Shown: positions 49,823 through 62,179 of the stretch, one piece after another
Position numbering within the stretch: position 1 is the first letter of the stretch
Layout: every line of letters begins with the position of its first letter
Source of the DNA: Phycicoccus avicenniae
Lineage (GTDB): Bacteria; Actinomycetota; Actinomycetes; Actinomycetales; Dermatophilaceae
Direction: 5' to 3'
Assembly: GCF_018139485.1 (NCBI RefSeq)
Contig: NZ_JAGSNF010000012.1
Coordinates: 1 to 64,000 of the forward strand
DNA length: 64,000 bases
Position numbers and translations under genes: made by a program
Notes under the pieces: generated by a model
Database searches by the model: none
Seen by the model: the letters and a program-made list of their open reading frames with translations, nothing else
Told to the model about the DNA's origin: nothing

Positions 49823-51700
49823 TCACATCTGGCGCTCGATCGCCTTCCACGTGACCCGGGCGACGACGCCCGTCTGCGCGATCCTCGCCCGCTTCTGGGC
49901 GGCCTTGACCGCGGCCTGGGTCTGCGGCCCGAAGGAGCCGTCCGCCGTGATGCCGAGCGCCCGCTGGAGCACCCGGACGGTCTCCCCGCGCGCCCCGCGC
50001 TTCAGGACGGTGTCGTAGTGCGCCGACAGCGGCGCGCTCCTGGCGAGCACGACCGTCCAGGTCCTGGCGTCGACGACACCGGTGACCCGCAGCCCGTTCG
50101 CCCGCTGGATGCTCTCGACACGGGTCTCGGTCCGGGGCCCGAAGCGGCCGTCGACGGTGAGCCCGCCGGCGGCCTGCTGGAACGCCCGCACGGCAGCGCC
50201 GGCCGAACCGCGACGCAGCGTCGTCGAGGCGTAGGACGAGGTCGAGGACCCCGTCCCGGAGCCCACCGAGCCCGCGGAGCCCGAGGAGGCGGACGACGCA
50301 CCCGACGACGCGCCGCCACCGGACCCGCCGGCCATGAGGGCCTTCCAGTCCTTGGCGTCGACGACACCGTCGGCGGCCAGGCCGACGCTCTTCTGCCACG
50401 CGACGACCCGCGACTGCGTCCGCGGTCCGAAGGAGCCGTCGACCGCGAGCCCGCCGACGGCCTTCTGCAGCGCCTTCACGGCCTCGCCGCGGCTCCAGAG
50501 CCGCAGGGTGACCCCGGAGTACTTCGCGAGGGGGTGCGCCGAGGACGAGGCCCCGGACCCGCCGGAGGACCGGCCCGCGAGGGCGTCCCACACGGCGCGG
50601 TCGACGACACCGGTCCGCGGCAGACCCTTCGAGCCCTGGTAGCTCTTGACCCGCGCCTCGGTCGCCGGGCCGAACGAGCCGTCGACGGCGATCCCGCCGA
50701 CCGCGCGCTGGAGGACGCGGACGGCCTCGCCGCGGGCGCCGCGTCGCAGGGTCGTCGAGGCGTAGCGGTCGATGTCGGCGGCCGAGGCCGACCCGGAGGA
50801 GCCGGAGGCCGACCCGGAGCCCGAGCCGGATCCGGACCCGGACGAGCCCGAGGACGCCCCGCGCAGCGCGTCCCACACGGCGCGGTCGGCGACACCGGTG
50901 CGCGGCAGACCCTTCGAGCCCTGGTAGGTCTTGACCCGTGCCTCGGTCGCCGGGCCGAAGGAGCCGTCGACGGAGAGCCCGCCGATGGCGCCCTGGAGCG
51001 CGCGCACGGCGGCCCCGGTCGAGCCGCGGCGCAGCGTCGTCGAGACGTAGCGGTCGAGGGACTCGGTGCCGCCGGTCTTCATCGGTCCGGTGAGGTAGTC
51101 CGTGCGGGCCCGGCCGGTCCACCACGAGTTGAGCGCGTACGCGCCGTCCCAGGTGAAGGAGATGTGGATGTGGTCGGTGTGCGGGGAGGAGCCGCTGTAG
51201 GCGGCCCATCCCTTGTCCGGGGCCCACGCCTTCCAGATCTTCCGGTTCCAGATCATGTAGTTGATCCCGAACCGGCGAGCCATGGCGCCGGGCCGGCCCT
51301 GGCTGTCCTTGGCGCTCAGCCAGCGGGTCAGGGTGTTGCCGACCTCGAGCTCGTCGGCCTTGCGCGCGTCGAGCATCCAGTCGAGCGCGCGGCCCTCCCC
51401 GTGCTCCTGGTCGCAGCCGCGCAGGATGCCGTAGGCGTGCTTGCCGTACGTCTGCTCGAGCAGCTTGGCGAAGGCGACCGGACCGGGCTGGTTCTCGCTG
51501 AGGCAGCGGAACCCGCCCTGGTACGGCGGGGCGACGTCGAGCGCGGAGGGCAGGGACCGGCTCGGCTGCGGCACCGGGACCGAGGCGGCCTGGGCCGCGG
51601 CGGCCCCGAGGGGCAGGGCGATGACGGAGGCCGAGACGGCGCCGATCGTGCGGGTGGGGACCCGACGCAGCGCCGGTCGGGCAGGGCGGGGCAGGGACAC
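49823..51700 (-). CDS. secreted M15-like protein with five peptidoglycan-binding repeats
   Basis: 625 residues from GTG 51700 (GGAG at 7 bases). A long signal region ends near AQAAS (40). Residues 65-185 contain DQEHGEGRALDWM (His100, Asp107) and PHTDHIHISF (His177/179), the metal set of M15-like D-Ala-D-Ala carboxypeptidases of the ARB_07466 type. Then five PG_binding_1 repeats (from about 205 to the end), each with LRRG..G.AVR.LQ and VDGSFGP.T; the first two are nearly identical. It should bind and trim wall peptides. It follows the SpoIID-like gene by 235 bp and has its own leader. Confidence 0.85.
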   Translation of the reverse strand: MSLPRPARPALRRVPTRTIGAVSASVIALPLGAAAAQAASVPVPQPSRSLPSALDVAPPYQGGFRCLSENQPGPVAFAKLLEQTYGKHAYGILRGCDQEHGEGRALDWMLDARKADELEVGNTLTRWLSAKDSQGRPGAMARRFGINYMIWNRKIWKAWAPDKGWAAYSGSSPHTDHIHISFTWDGAYALNSWWTGRARTDYLTGPMKTGGTESLDRYVSTTLRRGSTGAAVRALQGAIGGLSVDGSFGPATEARVKTYQGSKGLPRTGVADRAVWDALRGASSGSSGSGSGSGSGSASGSSGSASAADIDRYASTTLRRGARGEAVRVLQRAVGGIAVDGSFGPATEARVKSYQGSKGLPRTGVVDRAVWDALAGRSSGGSGASSSAHPLAKYSGVTLRLWSRGEAVKALQKAVGGLAVDGSFGPRTQSRVVAWQKSVGLAADGVVDAKDWKALMAGGSGGGASSGASSASSGSAGSVGSGTGSSTSSYASTTLRRGSAGAAVRAFQQAAGGLTVDGRFGPRTETRVESIQRANGLRVTGVVDARTWTVVLARSAPLSAHYDTVLKRGARGETVRVLQRALGITADGSFGPQTQAAVKAAQKRARIAQTGVVARVTWKAIERQM

Positions 51701-51935: not shown

Positions 51936-54164
51936 TCAGCGTCGCGCCGCGCCGGTGCGCACGCCGCCGGAGACCGAGGCGGTCCCGCCCATGACGACGA
52001 CCCGCTCGAGGTCCCCGGACTCCTGGAGGACCCGGGTGCTCGCCTCGGGCAGCCGGGCCCGGGTCGTGAGGAGGGTCATCCGCGGCACGCTGCCGGCGGT
52101 GAGGGCGTCGGCGAGGGCCGCGTCGGCGCCGCTGGCGAGCGAGACGTGCGTCGCCGCCGCGAGCCGCGGACGGTAGAACGACGCGACGGCCGCCGCCACC
52201 TCGTACCGGTCGGCGCCGCCGATGCGGTCGGTCCGCGCGCCGGTGCCCTCCAGGGCACGGACGACCGCGCCGGACACCGACGCCTCGCCGCCGAGCACCC
52301 GGACCGAGGTCGCGCCCGTCGAGCGGAGCGCCGAGGCCGTCGCCCCGGGCAGGACGTCGGCGCGGGTGAGCAGCACCGGCTCGTGCTCCGCCCCCGCGGG
52401 CCCTCCGGCCCCGAGGGCGTCGGCGAGCGCCGTGCCGGAGGCGACGACGGCCGCCGTCACGCGGCCCCGCCCGGCGACGTCGAGGGCGACGTTGGCCGCG
52501 ACCCGGTAGCGGTCGGCGCCGCTGATCCGGCGCACCGTGAGCCCGCGGGCCTCGAGCTGCTCGACGACGTCCTGGGACACCGTGGCCTCGCCCCCGACGA
52601 CGACGGCCTCGCGCAGCGTCCCGGCCCGCCGGGCCAGCTCGGTGCGGGTCGCGCCCGGGAGCGCCGTCCCCGTCGAGAGCAGCAGCGGCGCGTCGAGCGA
52701 CTGGGCGAGGGGGCCGGCGACGGCGGCGTCGGCCCGCTTCTCGGTGGCGCCGCTCGCGACGACGACGGTGCGCGCGGACGAGGAGTGCGTCCGGGCGAGG
52801 GCGGCGGCCACGGCGTAGCGGGTGGAGCCGCCGAGCCGCGTCGTCGGCCGCTCGACGTACGTCGAGTTCAGCCGCAGCCGGGAGCGCAGGCTCTCGCCCG
52901 ACAGGGTCCGGGTGGCGCCGGTCGACGAGGTGGCCGTCGCCGACGCGACGGCACCGGAGACGTAGCGCTCGGACAGGTCGAGGCGCACGACGTCGCGCAG
53001 GTCGAAGGCCGAGGCGAGACCGCTGCGGCTCGGGGCCGCGGTCCAGTGCGCGCGTGGGTTGCTCGAGCGCTGGGCCCACCGGTCGTCGACGCTGCGCAGG
53101 TACGGCAGCTCGGCGGTCCAGACGTCCTCGCTGTTCTGGGTGCGCCCCCCGCTGGAGGAGGAGTAGTAGGCCTCGATGATCGAGCCGCGGTACGTCGCGA
53201 CGTACCCCTGGTCCGAGGACCCCGCCGCCCGCACGGCGTCGGTCCAGCCGGGCCAGTACCGCCGGTCGCCCGACGACGTCGGGTACCCGCCGAAGACCTG
53301 GCTGCGGGTGTCGTCGTAGACGTGGCAGTTGCACGAGGAGCTCACCCCGGCGGCGATGTTCCGCAGGACGTACCCGCGGGCCGCGGCGGCCTGGGCCTGC
53401 AGCGTCGCGGCCGGCCAGGACCACGGCACCTCGCGAATGTAGTCGAGGTACTCGTCGTGGACGCGGACGTACATCGCGGCCTCGAGGGTGGAGCCGCCGG
53501 GTGTGCGCGTGACGCGGAGCAGCCCGTCCCGGTAGGACCCGGCGCCGTCGACGACGAGCAGGGTGCGGTCGTCGTCGAAGCGGACCGTCGGCCGGGCCCC
53601 GGTCGCGCTGCGCGTCCCCGAGCACCCGGAGCACGACACCGCCATCGACCCGCCGGACGGCCGGACGGTGACGACGTCGCCCGCCCCGCCCCGGATGTCG
53701 ACGTCGCCGTCGCCCGTCGCGACGGTGACCCGGAAGGACCCTCCGCCGCTCGACAGGGCGCTCGTGCGAAGCGTCACCGAGGCCGCCCGGTTGCGGACGT
53801 TGACCCGGGCCGTGGCGTCGTCGTCGCGGCGCTCGTAGTCGGTCCCGGTGTAGTAGTGACCGAGGATGTCGGCCGCCGAGTACCCGTCCCGCGCCATCTC
53901 GTACGCGCCGTACTGGCTCATCCCGACGCCGTGACCCCACCCCGAGCCGGACAGGGTCCACGACGAGGACTCCGCGGCGGCCACGTCGGGCGCGGCCGCG
54001 AGCCCCTCCGCGACCTCCGCGGCCTCGGCAGGGTCCGCCCCCGGGACCGGACGCGGCAGGTCCACCCCCCACGTGCCGTCGTCGGCCGTGGCGGCCGGCG
54101 CGGCGAGGGCGAGCACCACCGCCGCGCCGACGGCGGCCCGGACCCAGCGACCGGACGAGGTCAT
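51936..54164 (-). CDS. secreted SpoIID-like protein with CWB2 cell-wall-binding repeats
   Basis: 742 residues. A signal peptide (1-27) is followed by GWGHGVGMSQYGA (75-87), the SpoIID signature split here into a 'GHGVGMSQ' start and later LQAQAAAARGYVL and CHVYDDTRSQVFGG segments; SpoIID-type enzymes cut denuded glycan strands. From about 445 three CWB2 repeats follow, each starting GGSTRY/SGADRY/GGADRY and carrying ASG-ADAL and GGEASVS motifs. CWB2 attaches proteins non-covalently to a wall polymer. The ATG overlaps the amidase stop by 4 bp, so the two are coupled. Confidence 0.9.
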   Translation of the reverse strand: MTSSGRWVRAAVGAAVVLALAAPAATADDGTWGVDLPRPVPGADPAEAAEVAEGLAAAPDVAAAESSSWTLSGSGWGHGVGMSQYGAYEMARDGYSAADILGHYYTGTDYERRDDDATARVNVRNRAASVTLRTSALSSGGGSFRVTVATGDGDVDIRGGAGDVVTVRPSGGSMAVSCSGCSGTRSATGARPTVRFDDDRTLLVVDGAGSYRDGLLRVTRTPGGSTLEAAMYVRVHDEYLDYIREVPWSWPAATLQAQAAAARGYVLRNIAAGVSSSCNCHVYDDTRSQVFGGYPTSSGDRRYWPGWTDAVRAAGSSDQGYVATYRGSIIEAYYSSSSGGRTQNSEDVWTAELPYLRSVDDRWAQRSSNPRAHWTAAPSRSGLASAFDLRDVVRLDLSERYVSGAVASATATSSTGATRTLSGESLRSRLRLNSTYVERPTTRLGGSTRYAVAAALARTHSSSARTVVVASGATEKRADAAVAGPLAQSLDAPLLLSTGTALPGATRTELARRAGTLREAVVVGGEATVSQDVVEQLEARGLTVRRISGADRYRVAANVALDVAGRGRVTAAVVASGTALADALGAGGPAGAEHEPVLLTRADVLPGATASALRSTGATSVRVLGGEASVSGAVVRALEGTGARTDRIGGADRYEVAAAVASFYRPRLAAATHVSLASGADAALADALTAGSVPRMTLLTTRARLPEASTRVLQESGDLERVVVMGGTASVSGGVRTGAARR

Positions 54165-56662
54165 CGGGTCACCGTGGCGAGGACCGCCCCACCGGTGACC
54201 ATCGACACGCTCGAGGTCCCGCCGAGGACGGTCACCTCGTCGGTCGCCGCACCGGCGAGCCACGTCCGCACCGCGCGGGGGTAGGCGTCGGCCCGGACGT
54301 AGAGGATGGGCCGGGCGAGCTGGCCGCCGCTGAGGGTGTCCGCGAGCGCGGCGTCGACCCCGGAGGAGACGAGGACGCCGGAGACGTCGACGCCCTGGCC
54401 GCGGGCCCACGACGCGACGGTCGCGCTCACCGCGTACCGAGAGGTCCCCGACAGCCGGGTGGCCCGGGGCAGGTCGGCGAGCACCTCGGCGGAGACGGTG
54501 GCGGTGCCACCGGCCACGACCGTGCGCCGGACGCCGAGCTCGGCGACGGCGGCGGCGGTGGCCTCGGGCACCTCGCCGCTGCGCAGCAGCAGGATGGGGC
54601 GCCCGAGCGCGGCCGCGGGGCCGGACAGGACGAGACCGTCGGCCATCCTGCCCTCCTGCCCGCTCGCGGCGACGACGTCGGTGACGGGGGCGCCACCGGC
54701 CATCCGACGGGCGACGTTCGCGGCCACCTCGTACCGGCTCTCGCCCTCGACCCGCTCGACCCGGGAGACCCCGGCCGAGCGCAGCTCGCGGACGACGGTC
54801 GAGGAGACCGACGCGGTCCCGCCGACGACGGTGACGTCGGTGACGCCACGACGCACGATCTCGCTGCGGGTCACCGCGGGCAGCGACCCCGCCCGGGTGA
54901 GGAGGAGGACGGCGTCGTCGGACCGGGCCAGGGGCCCGGCGACGAGCGCGTCGGCCATCTTCCCCGAGGCCCCGTTGACGAGGACGACCCGACGGGTGCG
55001 GGAGTCCTTCTCGACGGCCGCGGAGACGGCGACGGCGTAGCGGTCCCTCCCGGACAGCCGCGGTGGGCACAGGCTCGGCGGCGAGTCGCTGCGGGCGACG
55101 ACGTCGAGCGTCCAGCTGCTCGACAGGGCCGTCGCGCGTGTCCCGGTCCCGCTCGCTCCGGTGAGGGTCACGGTGTAGCGGCCCGGCGGGACGAAGGAGC
55201 CGTCGGCCCGTCGCCCGTTCCACGAGGCGGTGAAGGCGCCCGCGCCGGAGCGCTTGCCCGAGGACTCCGCGACCGGGCCGTCGGAGCAGGGGCTCGTGAC
55301 GGTCAGCCGCCAGGTGAGGGCGCGGCTCGCGGCCGTCGCGACCGTCACCCCCGCGCTGCCGTACCCGTACCGCGTCCGGTTGATCGACGGCTGGTAGAGC
55401 ATCGTGCCCTGGGCGGCGCGGGCGTCGGTGCGGATGCTCGGCAGCATCGCGTGGAGCCGGGCGCCCGGGCACGAGGTCTGGTTGACGTCACGGTGCCCGA
55501 TGACCGTCGGCGAGGTGCCCTCCCCCTCGAGGTAGGTCGTCCCCGCGGGGTCGATGCCCTTGAGGCCGAGGCGCCAGCCGATGACCCCGTCCAGCGCCGC
55601 CGGCACCGCCGCCGGGGGCGTGTACGACGTGAAGTCGCCGAGCACGCTGATGCCGAAGGAGCTGCTGTTGAACGGGGCGGCGTGCGCGCCGGAGATGTCC
55701 CGGGTCGTCCCGCCGTAGCGGCCCTCCCACACACCACCGAACTTGTCGACGAGGTAGTTGTAGCCGATGTCGTTCCAGCCGTTGCCCTTGACGTGGAAGG
55801 AGTAGATGCCGCGCAGGATCCCGGGGACCTGCGACTGCGAGTAGTTGTTCGAGCCCGCCGTGTGGTGGACGATCGCCGCCTTCACCTCGCCGGTCGACGG
55901 CGAGCCCCTCCGGATGCTCTCGTCGGCCCCCCACGCCGCACGGGAGTGGATCGTCGGACGCGACGCCGCCGCGGCGGCCCCGCCGCGCACGTCCGCCGTC
56001 ACGGCCTCGTCGGCCGCGGTGACCGTGGTGTCGACGACGTCGAGCCGCGCCGCCTCCCCGTCGCTCTCGTCGTCCCCGACGACCCGCACCTGGAGCGCGT
56101 CCGCGGTGGAGACCCACGGCATCGTGCCGGCCCGGGCCTGCTCGGCCTCCTCGGTGCCCGGGTCCGGGCCCTCCTCGGCCTCGACGTGGATCTCCTGCCA
56201 GGCCCCCCACTCGCCCTCGCGCTCCTCGCGGAGCTCGACGGTCGCGGTCTCGGAGACCTCGCCCTCGGGCCAGGTGACGCCGACGACGTGCGGGCGACCC
56301 TCGAGGTCGACGACGTCGGAGCGCACCTCCTCGTCGGAGCCGGACGCGTCCGACCCCTCGGGGTCGGACGGCCCGTGGTCGTGCCCGGCGTGGTCGTCGG
56401 ACGCGTGCTCCTCGGAGTCGTGGTCGGCGGACGCGTCGTCCGGCGCCTCGTCGGCGTCGTCGGGCGCGGTCGCCGCGTCGGGCTCGGCGGCGAGGGCGGA
56501 GACCTCGTCGACGGGCTCGAGCGGGTAGGACTCCAGGGCCGCGTCGACCGGGCGGGGCTCGGCGGCGGCACGGTCCGGACCGCTGAGCGCGACGGGCGTC
56601 GCGACGGCGAGGACGAGGGCGAGGAGGACGGCGGGAGCGCGCCGCAGGGCAAGCGAGGTCAT
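54161..56662 (-). CDS. N-acetylmuramoyl-L-alanine amidase with CWB2 repeats
   Basis: 833 residues. A signal peptide (about 1-34) is followed by an Asp/Glu/His-rich segment (60-115) that could bind metal or cations. The Amidase_2/PGRP domain (about 238-410) has zinc ligands His266 or 267 (VHHTAG), His390 (GHRDVN) and Cys398 (TSCPG) plus YNYLVDKFGGVWEGR. A FlgD-like Ig domain (NGRRADGSFVPPGRYTVTL) comes next, then three CWB2 repeats (530-833). It should cleave stem peptides from wall glycan. Chosen start ATG 56662; upstream frame is open but lacks a signal peptide start. First gene of the pair with SpoIID. Confidence 0.9.
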   Translation of the reverse strand: MTSLALRRAPAVLLALVLAVATPVALSGPDRAAAEPRPVDAALESYPLEPVDEVSALAAEPDAATAPDDADEAPDDASADHDSEEHASDDHAGHDHGPSDPEGSDASGSDEEVRSDVVDLEGRPHVVGVTWPEGEVSETATVELREEREGEWGAWQEIHVEAEEGPDPGTEEAEQARAGTMPWVSTADALQVRVVGDDESDGEAARLDVVDTTVTAADEAVTADVRGGAAAAASRPTIHSRAAWGADESIRRGSPSTGEVKAAIVHHTAGSNNYSQSQVPGILRGIYSFHVKGNGWNDIGYNYLVDKFGGVWEGRYGGTTRDISGAHAAPFNSSSFGISVLGDFTSYTPPAAVPAALDGVIGWRLGLKGIDPAGTTYLEGEGTSPTVIGHRDVNQTSCPGARLHAMLPSIRTDARAAQGTMLYQPSINRTRYGYGSAGVTVATAASRALTWRLTVTSPCSDGPVAESSGKRSGAGAFTASWNGRRADGSFVPPGRYTVTLTGASGTGTRATALSSSWTLDVVARSDSPPSLCPPRLSGRDRYAVAVSAAVEKDSRTRRVVLVNGASGKMADALVAGPLARSDDAVLLLTRAGSLPAVTRSEIVRRGVTDVTVVGGTASVSSTVVRELRSAGVSRVERVEGESRYEVAANVARRMAGGAPVTDVVAASGQEGRMADGLVLSGPAAALGRPILLLRSGEVPEATAAAVAELGVRRTVVAGGTATVSAEVLADLPRATRLSGTSRYAVSATVASWARGQGVDVSGVLVSSGVDAALADTLSGGQLARPILYVRADAYPRAVRTWLAGAATDEVTVLGGTSSVSMVTGGAVLATVTR

Positions 56663-58321: not shown

Positions 58322-60046
58322 CTAGAGGTCGACGTCCCCCTCGGACTCGCCCCGTCCCGGGCCGCCCTGCCGCAGGTAGCCGGCGAGGCTCTGCCGGACG
58401 GCGGGGGCGACCGCCATCTCGCCGCCGAGCAGCACGACGTGGCTCGGCGCGAGCCGTTCCAGCTGGGCGTGCGTCGCCGAGGGCACCTCGTCCCGGTCGA
58501 CGAGGAGGATCGGCGCGTTCGCGAGCGCCGCGACCGCCGCACCCGTCACCGCGTCGCCGACCGACTCCGGCTGCGAGGACGCGACGAAGACGACCCCGAC
58601 GGCCTCGGCGGCGAGACCGTCGGCGGCCTCCGCGGCCGCCTGCACCGGCGTCGGCGACAGCCAGCGCTCCACGCCCTCCGTCGCGAGCTCCCGCAGCGGT
58701 GCGAGGTCGGCCTCCGCGACGTCCTCGGCGTCGGCGACGACGACGACCCGTGCCGGCGCGATCCGGCGCAGGGCCTCGACGTGGGCGTCGCGCACCCCCT
58801 CGGGGCCGACGAGCAGCACCCGGTCCCGGCCCGGCCGCGCCGTGAGGACCGCGCTCAGGGCGGCCATCGGGTCCTCGCCCGGGACGAGGTAGACGGTGTC
58901 GACGCCGGAGGAGGCGTCGAGGTCGTCGAGCAGCGCGACGCTCACGGACTCGGCGTCGCCCTCCTCGACCCGCTCGACGGCGACCCCGCTCTCGCGCAGG
59001 GCGTCCGCGACGTCCTCGTCGACGACCCCGGCGTCCCCGAGGAGGACGACGCGGCGGGCGCCGAGCCGCTCGACCTCGGCGGCGGTGACCTTCATGAGGC
59101 GCTTCGAGGAGGTGAGCAGGACCGGGGCGCCGACCGTCGTCGCGGCCGGGACCGCGGACAGCGCGAGCGCGAGGTCGGCCCCCGAGGCGAGGACGACGGT
59201 GTCGCAGCGGTCCGGGGTTCCCTGGCGCGAGACGAGCGCCGAGGTGTGGAAGCGCGTCCGCCCCTTCCAGCGCTCGACGCCGGGCACCTCGGGCTCGACC
59301 GGCCCCCCGGCCCCGAGCGACCTCTCCGCGGCGGCGGCGTACGCGTCGACGACCTCGTCGACCGGACCGTCCATGACGAGCTCGCCCTGGTCGAGCCACA
59401 GCGCGCGGTCGCACATCGCGCGGATCGTCGCCGCGGAGTGCGAGACGAGGAAGACCGTGCCCGCCTGCCCGCGCAGCTTCTCGATCCGCTCCTGGCTGCG
59501 GGCGCGGAAGTGCGCGTCGCCGGTCGCGAGCGCCTCGTCGATGACGAGGACGGGTGGGGTCGCGGCGGTCGAGATCGCGAACCGCAGCCGGGCCGCCATG
59601 CCCGAGGAGTACGTCGACATCGGCAGGTGGATCGCGTCACCGATCTCGGAGAACTCGACGATCTCGTCGTAGATCTCGTCCACCTCGGCCTTGCTCAGCC
59701 CGAGGGCCTGCGCCCCGATGTAGATGTTCCGGGCGCCGGAGAGCTGCTTGACGAGCACCGCGTTGACCCCGAGCAGCGACGGCGTGCCGTCGGCCCACAC
59801 CTCGCCGGACGTCGGGGGGACGAGGCCGGCGACCGTGCGCAGGAGGGTCGACTTGCCGGAGCCGTTGCGCCCGATGACCCCGATGGACTCGCCGTGGTGG
59901 GCGACGAACGAGACGTCCTTGACAGCGTGCACCGTCCGCACGCCCCGCCGCTCGCCCGAGCCCCCGGAGCGCCCGCCCGCGTAGACCCGGTAGACGATGT
60001 CGACGTGCGAGACGACGACGGAGGGCCGGGGGTCAGCCGCGCCCAT
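58322..60046 (-). CDS. Wzt/TagH-like polysaccharide-export ATPase fused to CWB2-like repeats
   Basis: 574 residues. Residues 1-240 are an ABC-2 exporter ATPase: Walker A GRNGSGKST (59-67), YSSGM signature (146-150), Walker B VLVIDEAL (167-173), switch His203, and the Wzt-type VVDAYAAAAE end. Residues 265-558 are three CWB2-like repeats: GRTRFHTSALVS with VLASGADLALAL, APVLLTSS and RRVVLLGDAGVV; DTVYLVPGEDPMAALSA with RVLLVG; VVFVASSQPESVGDAV with APILLVDRDEVP and HVVLLGGEMAVAP. The aromatic DRY of the wall-bound copies is kept only once (Arg265-Phe266). There is no signal peptide, so the repeats face the cytoplasm. Overlaps the permease by 14 bp. Confidence 0.9.
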   Translation of the reverse strand: MGAADPRPSVVVSHVDIVYRVYAGGRSGGSGERRGVRTVHAVKDVSFVAHHGESIGVIGRNGSGKSTLLRTVAGLVPPTSGEVWADGTPSLLGVNAVLVKQLSGARNIYIGAQALGLSKAEVDEIYDEIVEFSEIGDAIHLPMSTYSSGMAARLRFAISTAATPPVLVIDEALATGDAHFRARSQERIEKLRGQAGTVFLVSHSAATIRAMCDRALWLDQGELVMDGPVDEVVDAYAAAAERSLGAGGPVEPEVPGVERWKGRTRFHTSALVSRQGTPDRCDTVVLASGADLALALSAVPAATTVGAPVLLTSSKRLMKVTAAEVERLGARRVVLLGDAGVVDEDVADALRESGVAVERVEEGDAESVSVALLDDLDASSGVDTVYLVPGEDPMAALSAVLTARPGRDRVLLVGPEGVRDAHVEALRRIAPARVVVVADAEDVAEADLAPLRELATEGVERWLSPTPVQAAAEAADGLAAEAVGVVFVASSQPESVGDAVTGAAVAALANAPILLVDRDEVPSATHAQLERLAPSHVVLLGGEMAVAPAVRQSLAGYLRQGGPGRGESEGDVDL

Positions 60047-60920
60047 AGGTCCCCTCCCCCCGCCAGAAGACGACGGTCCCCACGACGAGCAGCAGGACGG
60101 CCCAGCCGAGCGAGACGAGCCAGGACAGCGGGGTCACCGGGTGCTCCTCGAGCAACGCCTGCCGGCCGAGCTCCAGCTGGAGGGCGAACGGCTGGTAGGT
60201 GAGCACCTGCCCGACGAGCTCGGGGAAGCGGTCGGCGAACACGCTGATGCTGAAGAAGACGCCCGAGGTGTAGCGCATGAGGCGCACCGCGAGCGGGATG
60301 AAGTTCGCGAGGTCGCGGCTGGCGTTGACGAGCCGGGCGAGGACGAGGGCCAGCCCGGTGAGCTGGAGCATCTGCAGGAGCACGGCGACGGGGAAGAGCA
60401 GCCAGTGCCAGGAGAGCGCCTCGCCCGTCAACGGGGTGAGCAGGAGCAGCAGGGCGAACGCGGGCCACGAGGTGTAGAGCTCGGTGAGCGAGACCGACAC
60501 CGGCAGCGCCGCCCGCGGGAAGCGCAACGCCCGCACGAGCCCGAGGTTGTTCGAGATCGCCTTGGCCCCGCTCGTGAGCACCGACGCCGTCACCCCGAAG
60601 AGGACGACGCCGATGGACAGGAAGGCGATGAAGTTGTCGACGCCGCGGTCGGTGCGCAGGAGCAGCCCGAAGACGAGGAAGTAGCTGACGATGAGCAGCG
60701 CCGGGTTGAAGACCGCCCAGAGGTGGCCGAGCCGGTTCTTCTCGTACTGGGCGGCGCCCTGGGCCGCGGACAGCGTGAGGACGAACTGGCGACGACGCCA
60801 CAGCTCGGCGAGGTAGCGGCCGAGACCCGGGCGGGCCGACAGCGAGGTGAGCCCGTGCCGGCGCGCGAGGGCCCGTGCCTCCTCGACCGAGAGCGCCGGC
60901 CCCGGGGACACCGGCCTCAC
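60033..60920 (-). CDS. Wzm/TagG-like ABC-2 polysaccharide permease
   Basis: 295 residues with six transmembrane segments, the ABC2_membrane type used for teichoic acid or O-antigen export. Hallmarks: AQGAAQYEKNRLGHLWAVFNPALLIVSYFLVFG (N-terminal amphipathic entry), ISNNLGLVRALRFPRAALPVSVSLTELY, and RLMRYTSGVFFSISVFADRFP. The GTG at 60920 overlaps the dehydrogenase stop (GTGA). It pairs with the ATPase downstream to move an undecaprenyl-linked glycan outward. Confidence 0.92.
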   Translation of the reverse strand: MRPVSPGPALSVEEARALARRHGLTSLSARPGLGRYLAELWRRRQFVLTLSAAQGAAQYEKNRLGHLWAVFNPALLIVSYFLVFGLLLRTDRGVDNFIAFLSIGVVLFGVTASVLTSGAKAISNNLGLVRALRFPRAALPVSVSLTELYTSWPAFALLLLLTPLTGEALSWHWLLFPVAVLLQMLQLTGLALVLARLVNASRDLANFIPLAVRLMRYTSGVFFSISVFADRFPELVGQVLTYQPFALQLELGRQALLEEHPVTPLSWLVSLGWAVLLLVVGTVVFWRGEGTYGRG

Positions 60921-62179
60921 AAGCGGTGGACCCCGTCCCCGTCCGCGGCCTTGCCGCGGGTGTCGAAGAAGCGGGAGGCCTTCGCGGCGAGCGCGTCGAC
61001 GTCGTAGGACCGGTGGTTCTGGAGCAGGACGACGAGGTCGGCGTCGGCGATCGCGGCGTCGAGGTCGTCGACGCGCGGCACCCGGTCCCCGACCGCGGTC
61101 CACGTCTGCACGTGCGGGTCGTGGAAGACGAGGTCGGCGCCCTTGTCGAGCATGTGCTTGGCGACCGGCACGGCCGGCGACTCGCGCTGGTCGGCGATGT
61201 TCGGCTTGTACGTGACGCCGAGGAGGAGGACCCGAGCCCCGCGCAGCGCCTTGCCGTCCTCGTTGAGGATGTCCTGGGCGCGGGACACGACGTACGCCGG
61301 CATCGTCGAGTTGATCTCCTGGGCCAGCTCGACGAACCGGAACGGGTACCCGAGCTTGGCCCGGACGTTGTAGCTGAGGTAGTTCGGGTCGATCGGGATG
61401 CAGTGCCCGCCGACGCCCGGACCGGGGTAGAACGCCTGGAACCCGAACGGCTTCGTCGCCGCGGCGTCGATGACGTCCCAGAGGTCGATGTCGAGGTCGT
61501 GGCAGAACCGCGCCATCTCGTTGACCAGCGCGATGTTGATGTGCCGGTAGGTGTTCTCGAGCAGCTTGGCCGTCTCGGCCTCGCGGGTGCCCTTGGCGCG
61601 CACGACGGTGTCGACGAAGCGGCCGTAGAAGGCGGCGGCGCGGTCCCCGCACGCAGGGGTGAACCCGCCGACGACCTTCGGGGTGTTCTTCGCGCCGAAC
61701 TGCGCGTTCCCCGGGTCGATGCGCTCGGGCGAGAAGGCGAGGTGGAAGTCGGTCCCGGCGGTGAGCCCGCCCGCCTCGAGGATCGGGCGGACGACCTCGT
61801 CCGTCGTGCCCGGGTAGGTCGTCGACTCGAGGATGACGAGGGTGCCGGCGGTGAGGTTGCGGGCGATGGCCGCGACGGCGCCCTCGACGGCGCCGAGGTC
61901 GGGACCGCCGTCCTCGCCGAGCGGGGTGGGGACGCAGATGACGACGGTCTCGGCGTCGCGGATGACGTCCTCGCTCGTCGAGGCCTCGAAGCCGGCGTCG
62001 AGCAGCTCGCGCAGCTCGGCGTCGTCGATGTCGTCGATGTGCGACGTCCCTCCGTTGAGCCCGGCCACGACCCGCTCGCTGATGTCGAAGCCGCGCACCG
62101 TGAGACCGGCGCGGGTGGCTTCCTGGACCAGGGGCAGTCCGACGTAGCCGAGACCGATGACGGTGACGTCCACAGCCAT
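60917..62179 (-). CDS. UDP-sugar 6-dehydrogenase (UGD/WecC family)
   Basis: 420 residues. NAD-binding VIGLGYVGLPLV at the start, SPERIDPGNAQFGAKNTPKVVGG, and the catalytic Cys260 in GPGVGGHCIPIDP give a two-step oxidation of a UDP-sugar (hexose or N-acetylhexosamine) to the uronate. The ERIDPGN and NTPKVVGG sequence favours the WecC/UDP-GlcNAc or ManNAc branch over UDP-glucose. AAGGAG lies before the ATG. As first gene of the export operon it suggests that the exported polymer is acidic. Confidence 0.92.
   Translation of the reverse strand: MAVDVTVIGLGYVGLPLVQEATRAGLTVRGFDISERVVAGLNGGTSHIDDIDDAELRELLDAGFEASTSEDVIRDAETVVICVPTPLGEDGGPDLGAVEGAVAAIARNLTAGTLVILESTTYPGTTDEVVRPILEAGGLTAGTDFHLAFSPERIDPGNAQFGAKNTPKVVGGFTPACGDRAAAFYGRFVDTVVRAKGTREAETAKLLENTYRHINIALVNEMARFCHDLDIDLWDVIDAAATKPFGFQAFYPGPGVGGHCIPIDPNYLSYNVRAKLGYPFRFVELAQEINSTMPAYVVSRAQDILNEDGKALRGARVLLLGVTYKPNIADQRESPAVPVAKHMLDKGADLVFHDPHVQTWTAVGDRVPRVDDLDAAIADADLVVLLQNHRSYDVDALAAKASRFFDTRGKAADGDGVHRL

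Follow-up and report, generated by a model that had tools for sequence, protein, structure and literature searches.

Why a motor protein of an export system should carry repeats of a cell-wall-binding type, and on which side of the membrane these repeats would work, is the question raised by a gene of Phycicoccus avicenniae that lies within the window, i.e., the 64,000-nucleotide stretch of DNA analysed in this study. The repeat concerned, CWB2 (PF04122), is usually treated as an extracellular anchor. The gene is a single frame of 574 codons at 58322-60046 on the minus strand, with an ATG start and no internal stop. Its parts and the neighbours that matter for its interpretation are as follows.

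58322..60046, minus strand: fusion gene (574 aa), TagH/Wzt-type export ATPase with a C-terminal CWB2 triple
59333..60046, minus strand: nucleotide-binding domain (residues 1-238), TagH and Wzt/RfbE being the nearest curated models
59279..59332, minus strand: linker (residues 239-256), without a hydrophobic segment, so that a membrane crossing is not expected
58991..59278, minus strand: CWB2 repeat 1 (residues 257-352), PVLL motif at 308-311
58691..58981, minus strand: CWB2 repeat 2 (residues 356-452), degenerate, RVLL replacing PILL
58376..58675, minus strand: CWB2 repeat 3 (residues 458-557), PILL motif at 512-515
60033..60911, minus strand: Wzm-type permease (292 aa), whose gene shares 14 bases with the start of the fusion
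60917..62173, minus strand: nucleotide-sugar dehydrogenase, above the NDP-sugDHase cut-off and below the UDP-ManNAc dehydrogenase cut-offs
54161..56662, minus strand: N-acetylmuramoyl-L-alanine amidase (Amidase_2) with three CWB2 repeats, secreted by appearance
51936..54164, minus strand: SpoIID/LytB protein with three CWB2 repeats, secreted by appearance

The ATPase part is matched by the Pfam model ABC_tran at residues 42-173 (E 6e-18), and among the NCBIfam models TagH and Wzt are nearest. The equivalog cut-offs of both are missed (169.6 vs. 320 bits for TagH, 163.6 vs. 400 bits for galactan Wzt), which places the ATPase, as judged from these scores, in the same superfamily as the two equivalogs and outside either of them. 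In a PDB sequence search its nearest relative was TagH of B. subtilis (7dd0, E 1.8e-53). Residue Y236, the hinge tyrosine, aligns with position 233 of Aquifex aeolicus Wzt, which is named in PMC9445017; because the same tyrosine is present in the 26 unfused ATPases that were read, and also in a fusion cut by a contig end (G046), it is uninformative about the tail and was rejected as evidence on it. The window's genome encodes a second TagH/Wzt-type ATPase, which is unfused (G000:C11:161901-162632).

The tail itself is recognised by PF04122 (CW_binding_2) well above the cut-off, with E 3.5e-19 and 69.6 bits vs. 24.9 bits for the whole protein, two stretches passing individually, and 73.3 bits when the tail is searched by itself. 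A single-repeat HMM, built on 21 other CWB2 repeats from the same genome, detects three repeats in the tail at 60.6, 20.0, and 43.5 bits, the middle one being weak. Shuffling 56 fused tails (1120 shuffles) gave no score above 11.1 bits, and this control together with the predicted fold rules out a chance resemblance to CWB2. An AlphaFold2 model from a 16-row alignment contains three alpha/beta repeats at approximately residues 257-352, 356-452, and 458-557 with block pLDDT values of 80-95, the ATPase part being less certain (several blocks below 50). The best Foldseek match in the PDB is Cwp8 of Clostridioides difficile (5j6q, E 6.7e-19), and the model superposes on Cwp6 (5j72_A) at 3.3 A over 310 columns. 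For a divergent relative from Janibacter melonis the same fold is predicted; its PDB matches are led by TagH structures, with Cwp6 at Foldseek rank 13 (3.8 A over 309 columns). The tail is therewith predicted to consist of three tandem repeats of the Cwp6/Cwp8 fold, the second of which is weak in sequence, and the beta-sandwich that ends Wzt-type proteins is absent from the model, which has the alpha/beta triple repeat in its place. A first-pass annotation of this DNA had read the protein as a Wzt/TagH-type ATPase joined to three CWB2-like repeats, and had named the PF04122 search and the superposition of a predicted fold on C. difficile CWB2 proteins as checks; this reading is borne out by the ABC_tran and PF04122 matches, the repeat HMM, and the predicted structure.

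On which side of the membrane the tail resides can be approached via the linker. Its most hydrophobic 19-residue window reaches a mean Kyte-Doolittle value (KD19) of 0.72 in the 26 full-length copies from the window's family and of 0.87 in 30 copies from a second, distant family (see below), so that no hydrophobic window is present in either set; for comparison, the permease reaches 2.43. Within the tail, hydrophobic peaks amount to 1.97 at most, a modest excess over secreted CWB2 modules, in which they reach 1.68. By eye, the N-terminus of the fusion shows no signal-peptide-like stretch either, in agreement with what had been noted earlier, and on both counts the protein does not look like a secreted wall protein. 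Without a membrane-spanning linker the tail should be cytosolic. Display outside the cell, as for the SH3b-like domain of B. subtilis TagH, has a precedent in the same ATPase family (PMC11466899, in the part cited here), yet the membrane helix that TagH has between its ATPase and its C-terminal domain is absent, and the linker is free of hydrophobic segments in all 26 and 30 copies; extracellular display was rejected on these grounds and is considered highly improbable. The place of the tail, after the ATPase and on the cytosolic side, corresponds to that at which Wzt carries its carbohydrate-binding domain, as had been proposed.

The genes around the fusion point to the kind of cargo that might be exported. 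The overlapping permease is nearest to NF050109, under the cut-off of that model. Further on the permease side of the window's genome, the genes within 15 kb include one for a cytidylyltransferase, one for an AT3-SGNH acyltransferase, and three for Glyphos_transf proteins; a CDP-alcohol phosphotransferase is encoded at 16-17 kb, and 19-22 kb away there are an LCP fragment and a second LCP protein. Judged by this gene content, a teichoic-type assembly and attachment locus stands beside the fusion in this genome. In a scan of ten neighbours, one Janibacter-like locus showed a Glyphos_transf and a Stealth protein, and a UDP-GlcNAc 2-epimerase was seen in one locus per family. PF04464 was found in 16 of the 33 fusion genomes searched (12/27 in the first family, 4/6 in the second), so that in some genomes the cargo may be something other than a classical teichoic acid, and the exact polymer class probably varies among fusion genomes. 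On the other side of the fusion, the two secreted CWB2 hydrolases lie at the 1.7 to 6.4 kb that had been reported for them, i.e., the Amidase_2 protein (54161-56662) and the SpoIID protein (51936-54164), separated from the fusion by two genes on the opposite strand that look CoA-transferase-like by eye. Next to the hydrolases, at 49823-51700, a secreted-looking protein is encoded with, by appearance, several peptidoglycan-binding-like repeats. Another contig of the same genome (C23:37474-40646 of G000, reaching almost to the end of C23) gives the same CWB2 and SpoIID scores as positions 51939-55111 of the window (C19); it is either redundant assembly or a true duplicate, and own-genome CWB2 counts are inflated by it.

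The fusion is not confined to one assembly. Full-length copies are present in 26 of the 186 genomes of the same family, all of them open frames of 554-614 aa, and a 27th (G046) is cut by a contig end within its first repeat. Named records of the fusion come from three Phycicoccus, one Nostocoides, and Janibacter melonis, and a frameshift or misassembly is ruled out by the 26 full-length open copies and these five public records. A Wzm-type permease adjoins the fusion in 26/26 full-length loci, and PF04122 matches 25 of the 26 copies at E 0.01. Many genomes of the family contain close ATPase relatives without a tail. In an ATPase tree that took in 27 of the 32 loci outside the fusion set (one being the cut fusion G046; five were left out), a single clade of fused proteins in this family was not rejected (p-AU 0.3); in the best tree the fused proteins do not form one clade, with one unfused long-branch row among them.

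A survey of 396 genomes of the phylum indicated where else such proteins occur. Outside the window's family, those among the matches listed that extended past model position 330 all belonged to one distant actinobacterial family (f42), probably Eggerthellaceae. Searching 138 genomes of this family yielded 44 full-length fusions and four partial ones. In the 30 loci that were taken further, the CWB2-model scores of the tails range from 22.7 to 78.4 bits (vs. the 11.1-bit maximum of the 1120 shuffles), 29/30 have a PF04122 match at E 0.01, and 29/30 are adjoined by a permease. Six ATPases of this family, included in the ATPase tree, sit on a very long branch away from the first set. In a tail tree of 16 of the 26 fused tails from the first family, 11 of the 30 from the second, and 28 secreted modules, each fused set forms a clade (support 100/98 and 99/98), and the second-family set groups with three secreted CWB2 modules from one genome of its own family (100/98). 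A joint clade of all fused tails was rejected, and with it one ancient fusion common to both families, at p-AU 0.03 and with a warning of odd letter make-up for 15 of the 55 rows. Given the separate clades and the rejection of a joint one, CWB2 seems to have been captured by an export ATPase at least twice, separately. In 9 of the 10 second-family genomes searched for other PF04122 proteins, none was found outside the fusion; the remaining one (G580:C1:1633593-1638239; L117, L210-L226) encodes three, 16-20 kb from the fusion.

Whether the tail is under selection bears on the reading that it is merely the tolerated relic of a chance fusion. For the 15 closest of the 325 pairs among the 26 first-family copies (tail dN below 0.3), omega is 0.25-0.54 in the tail (median 0.38) and 0.07-0.19 in the ATPase (median 0.10); for the 122 pairs with tail dN below 0.5, the medians are 0.59 and 0.18, the tail value exceeding that of the ATPase in 122/122. 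The tail is hence under purifying selection in the closest pairs and constrained, less so than the motor. This also applies to the pairs among G130, G138, G126, and G129 (tail omega 0.25-0.38), which have no detectable CWB2 wall protein. Rates at greater distance approach saturation, to which dN/dS values above 1 in distant pairs were put down, and these were left unused. A relic would agree with a tail far more divergent than its ATPase and with tail omega values of 0.5-0.9 in many mid-distance pairs; it is, however, hard to reconcile with 26 full-length open copies of 554-614 aa, with the low omega of the 15 closest pairs, with the PF04122 match retained in 25/26 and 29/30 copies, and with a second lineage having done the same, and it is the least credible of the readings weighed here. 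The higher omega of the tail would fit a specificity domain as well as weak constraint.

Motifs and surface charge allow the nature of this constraint to be considered further. Repeats 1 and 3 conserve the proline of the PILL-type motif (in 26/26 and 25/26 copies, respectively), and it is gone from repeat 2 in 24/26 copies (kept in 2/26). In C. difficile, anchoring is lost when PILL is replaced by AAAA in at least one repeat, a Pro-to-Ala change being tolerated (PMC4973711, in the part cited here), and the motif may be needed for the fold as well. Every fused tail examined is net acidic, with charges per 100 residues of -8.4 to -1.1 in the first family (26 tails) and -7.4 to -2.2 in the second (30 tails); the secreted modules of the first family are mostly neutral to basic (-2.4 to +7.4, 25 modules), and those of the second are acidic (-5.0 to -4.4, three modules from one genome). 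In the sections available of a study on SlpA (PMC8881574), it is suggested that the wall polymer PSII is contacted by positive patches at the base of the CWB2 tile, which faces the wall, and the CWB2-polymer contact is still called an open matter. An acidic tail surface suits an anionic ligand poorly and counts against the putative binding of such a polymer. It would suit a tail that contacts no glycan and acts as a structural or docking module, which might dimerise the ATPase, space its two heads, or hold a polymerase or glycosyltransferase near the channel. The degenerate second repeat, the fast divergence of the tail, and its persistence where no CWB2 wall protein is detectable in the genome also speak for such a module, as does the mutual packing of S-layer CWB2 tiles by charge (PMC8881574, same sections). 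Yet it would be a coincidence for a wall-polymer-binding fold to be taken up twice for a non-glycan task, and repeats 1 and 3 retain their PILL-type motifs, though perhaps for the fold alone. A structural role is therefore regarded as a serious but unlikely alternative.

The first-pass annotation had gone further, proposing that one and the same polymer is recognised by the tail and by the secreted CWB2 hydrolases, as a gate inside and an anchor outside, and that fusions should co-occur with CWB2 wall proteins. In five Phycicoccus-type genomes (G000, G009, G008, G003, and G011) the fusion and both hydrolase genes do share one neighbourhood, and a SpoIID orthologue is present in 22 of the 27 fusion genomes, in 17 of which the HMM detects a CWB2-like tail on it (an 18th, G127, was judged by a search match only). 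Seven SpoIID loci of genomes without the fusion were left out of this HMM check. The predicted co-occurrence was nevertheless not borne out: a family-wide search at E 0.001 gave PF04122 wall proteins other than the fusion in 13/27 fusion genomes vs. 69/159 others (Fisher p 0.68), and the count changes to 14/27 when matches seen only in a smaller search are added (p 0.53) and to 15/27 at E 0.01 (p 0.30). CWB2-rich genomes within genus g47 contain the ATPase without the tail, and in 11 genomes a SpoIID orthologue occurs without the fusion. Seven of the 27 fusion genomes (G048, G126, G129, G130, G138, G139, and G156, the completeness of G139 being only 79%) show no CWB2-like wall protein by PF04122 or by a check of the SpoIID tail, although wall CWB2 proteins are possibly undercounted since PF04122 misses very divergent repeats. 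In G126, G129, G130, and G138 the SpoIID protein is kept and its CWB2 tail is gone or unrecognisable, with the fused tail kept. Fusions in genomes that lack CWB2 wall proteins, named beforehand as an outcome contrary to the proposal, were thus encountered in part, i.e., in these 7/27 genomes and in 9/10 of the second family.

The scores of the fused tail and of the SpoIID tail are not significantly correlated either (rho 0.41, p 0.07 in 20 genomes, leaving out the cut fusion of G046 and the fragment of G127; rho -0.39, p 0.16 in the 15 genomes outside Phycicoccus). In fusion genomes outside Phycicoccus (L159-L162, i.e., G126, G130, G138, and G129; L132-L136; L151-L157) the catalytic part of SpoIID is kept and the CWB2 tail scores low. 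A 908-aa frame in L132 (G046:C213) combines amidase-like, SpoIID-like, and CWB2-like parts that are two genes in the window (enzyme parts by eye), and L135 (G157:C4) encodes a secreted-looking protein that bears three CWB2 repeats and resembles a hydrolase of the serine beta-lactamase type. Fused and secreted modules appear to be linked locally rather than in general. A ligand common to the tail and the hydrolases could hold in Phycicoccus; as a general account, one polymer read on both sides of the membrane is improbable. The CWB2 fold, the cytosolic position, the Wzt-like place, and the teichoic-type locus of the original interpretation stand, and its single polymer inside and outside is unsupported as stated.

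Observed, then, are the order of the domains, the predicted fold, the permease partner, a gene context of teichoic type in the window's genome, the selection in close pairs, and separate fusions in two lineages. With the Wzt layout, the CWB2 fold, and this gene context, a cytosolic reader of the exported polymer is the simplest account, and we give even chances to the tail being such a domain, an analogue of the Wzt carbohydrate-binding domain derived from another fold. Besides the acidic surface, the degenerate repeat 2, the existence of close ATPases without a tail, and the presence of PF04464 in only 16/33 genomes count against it. We infer that the polymer is bound by the tail and thereby gated or recruited for export. 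In such a polymer reader, the ATPase would power a Wzm/Wzt (TagGH) exporter whose cargo, going by the gene context, would be a lipid-linked anionic wall polymer of teichoic type; the cytosolic CWB2 triple would serve as the recognition domain of the exporter, capturing a chain that is complete or properly assembled next to the entrance of the channel, and binding of the chain would be coupled to ATP hydrolysis, as for the jelly-roll domain of Gram-negative Wzt. The broader proposition, that two distant actinobacterial lineages have each brought CWB2 into the cytosol to read the substrate of an exporter, choosing chains or chain ends, with the same polymer perhaps read outside by the Phycicoccus hydrolases, is put forward tentatively, at somewhat less than even chances.

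If true, these proteins would be Gram-positive counterparts of the Wzt carbohydrate-binding domain, deciding which chains or chain ends leave the cell. A cytosolic CWB2 triple on the exporter of its likely ligand would make cargo choice and timing, as well as the CWB2-polymer contact, directly testable, the recognition module being joined to a motor with a measurable activity. No paper on a CWB2-ATPase fusion was found in a search of the open-licence literature; the sequences are public, and the architecture may already be listed in domain databases. The variant described here combines an exporter of the Wzt/TagH type with a tail of the recognition type that has a different fold.

Among known systems, the tail resembles SlpA, Cwp6, and Cwp8 (PF04122) in its three tandem repeats, its predicted fold, and its PILL-type motifs; those proteins are secreted anchors, whereas the repeats of the fusion are attached to an ATPase whose start does not resemble a signal peptide, and would bind a polymer only putatively. 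TagH of B. subtilis and TarH provide the closest solved ATPase domain by sequence (7dd0) and share a teichoic-type locus. The TarGH exporter core is described in PMC7078476, and the ATPase of TagGH (named TagG in PMC11466899) has a membrane helix and an extracellular SH3b-like domain; the fusion, in contrast, has no helix and a C-terminal domain of another fold. In the parts of this literature covered here, a cytosolic glycan-reading domain is not described for Gram-positive TagGH/TarGH. A further close parallel is Wzt of the A. aeolicus and E. coli O9a type, with an export ATPase of the same family, a Wzm-type permease, and a glycan-binding-type domain after the ATPase in the cytosol. According to the sections of PMC9445017 cited here, the C-terminal domain of Wzt is essential for the export of capped O antigens in Gram-negatives; in A. 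aeolicus this domain binds the cap and has a modulating effect on ATPase activity. The known Wzt domain is a dimeric jelly-roll, in contrast to the CWB2 triple of the fusion, for which an anionic wall polymer is the likely cargo.
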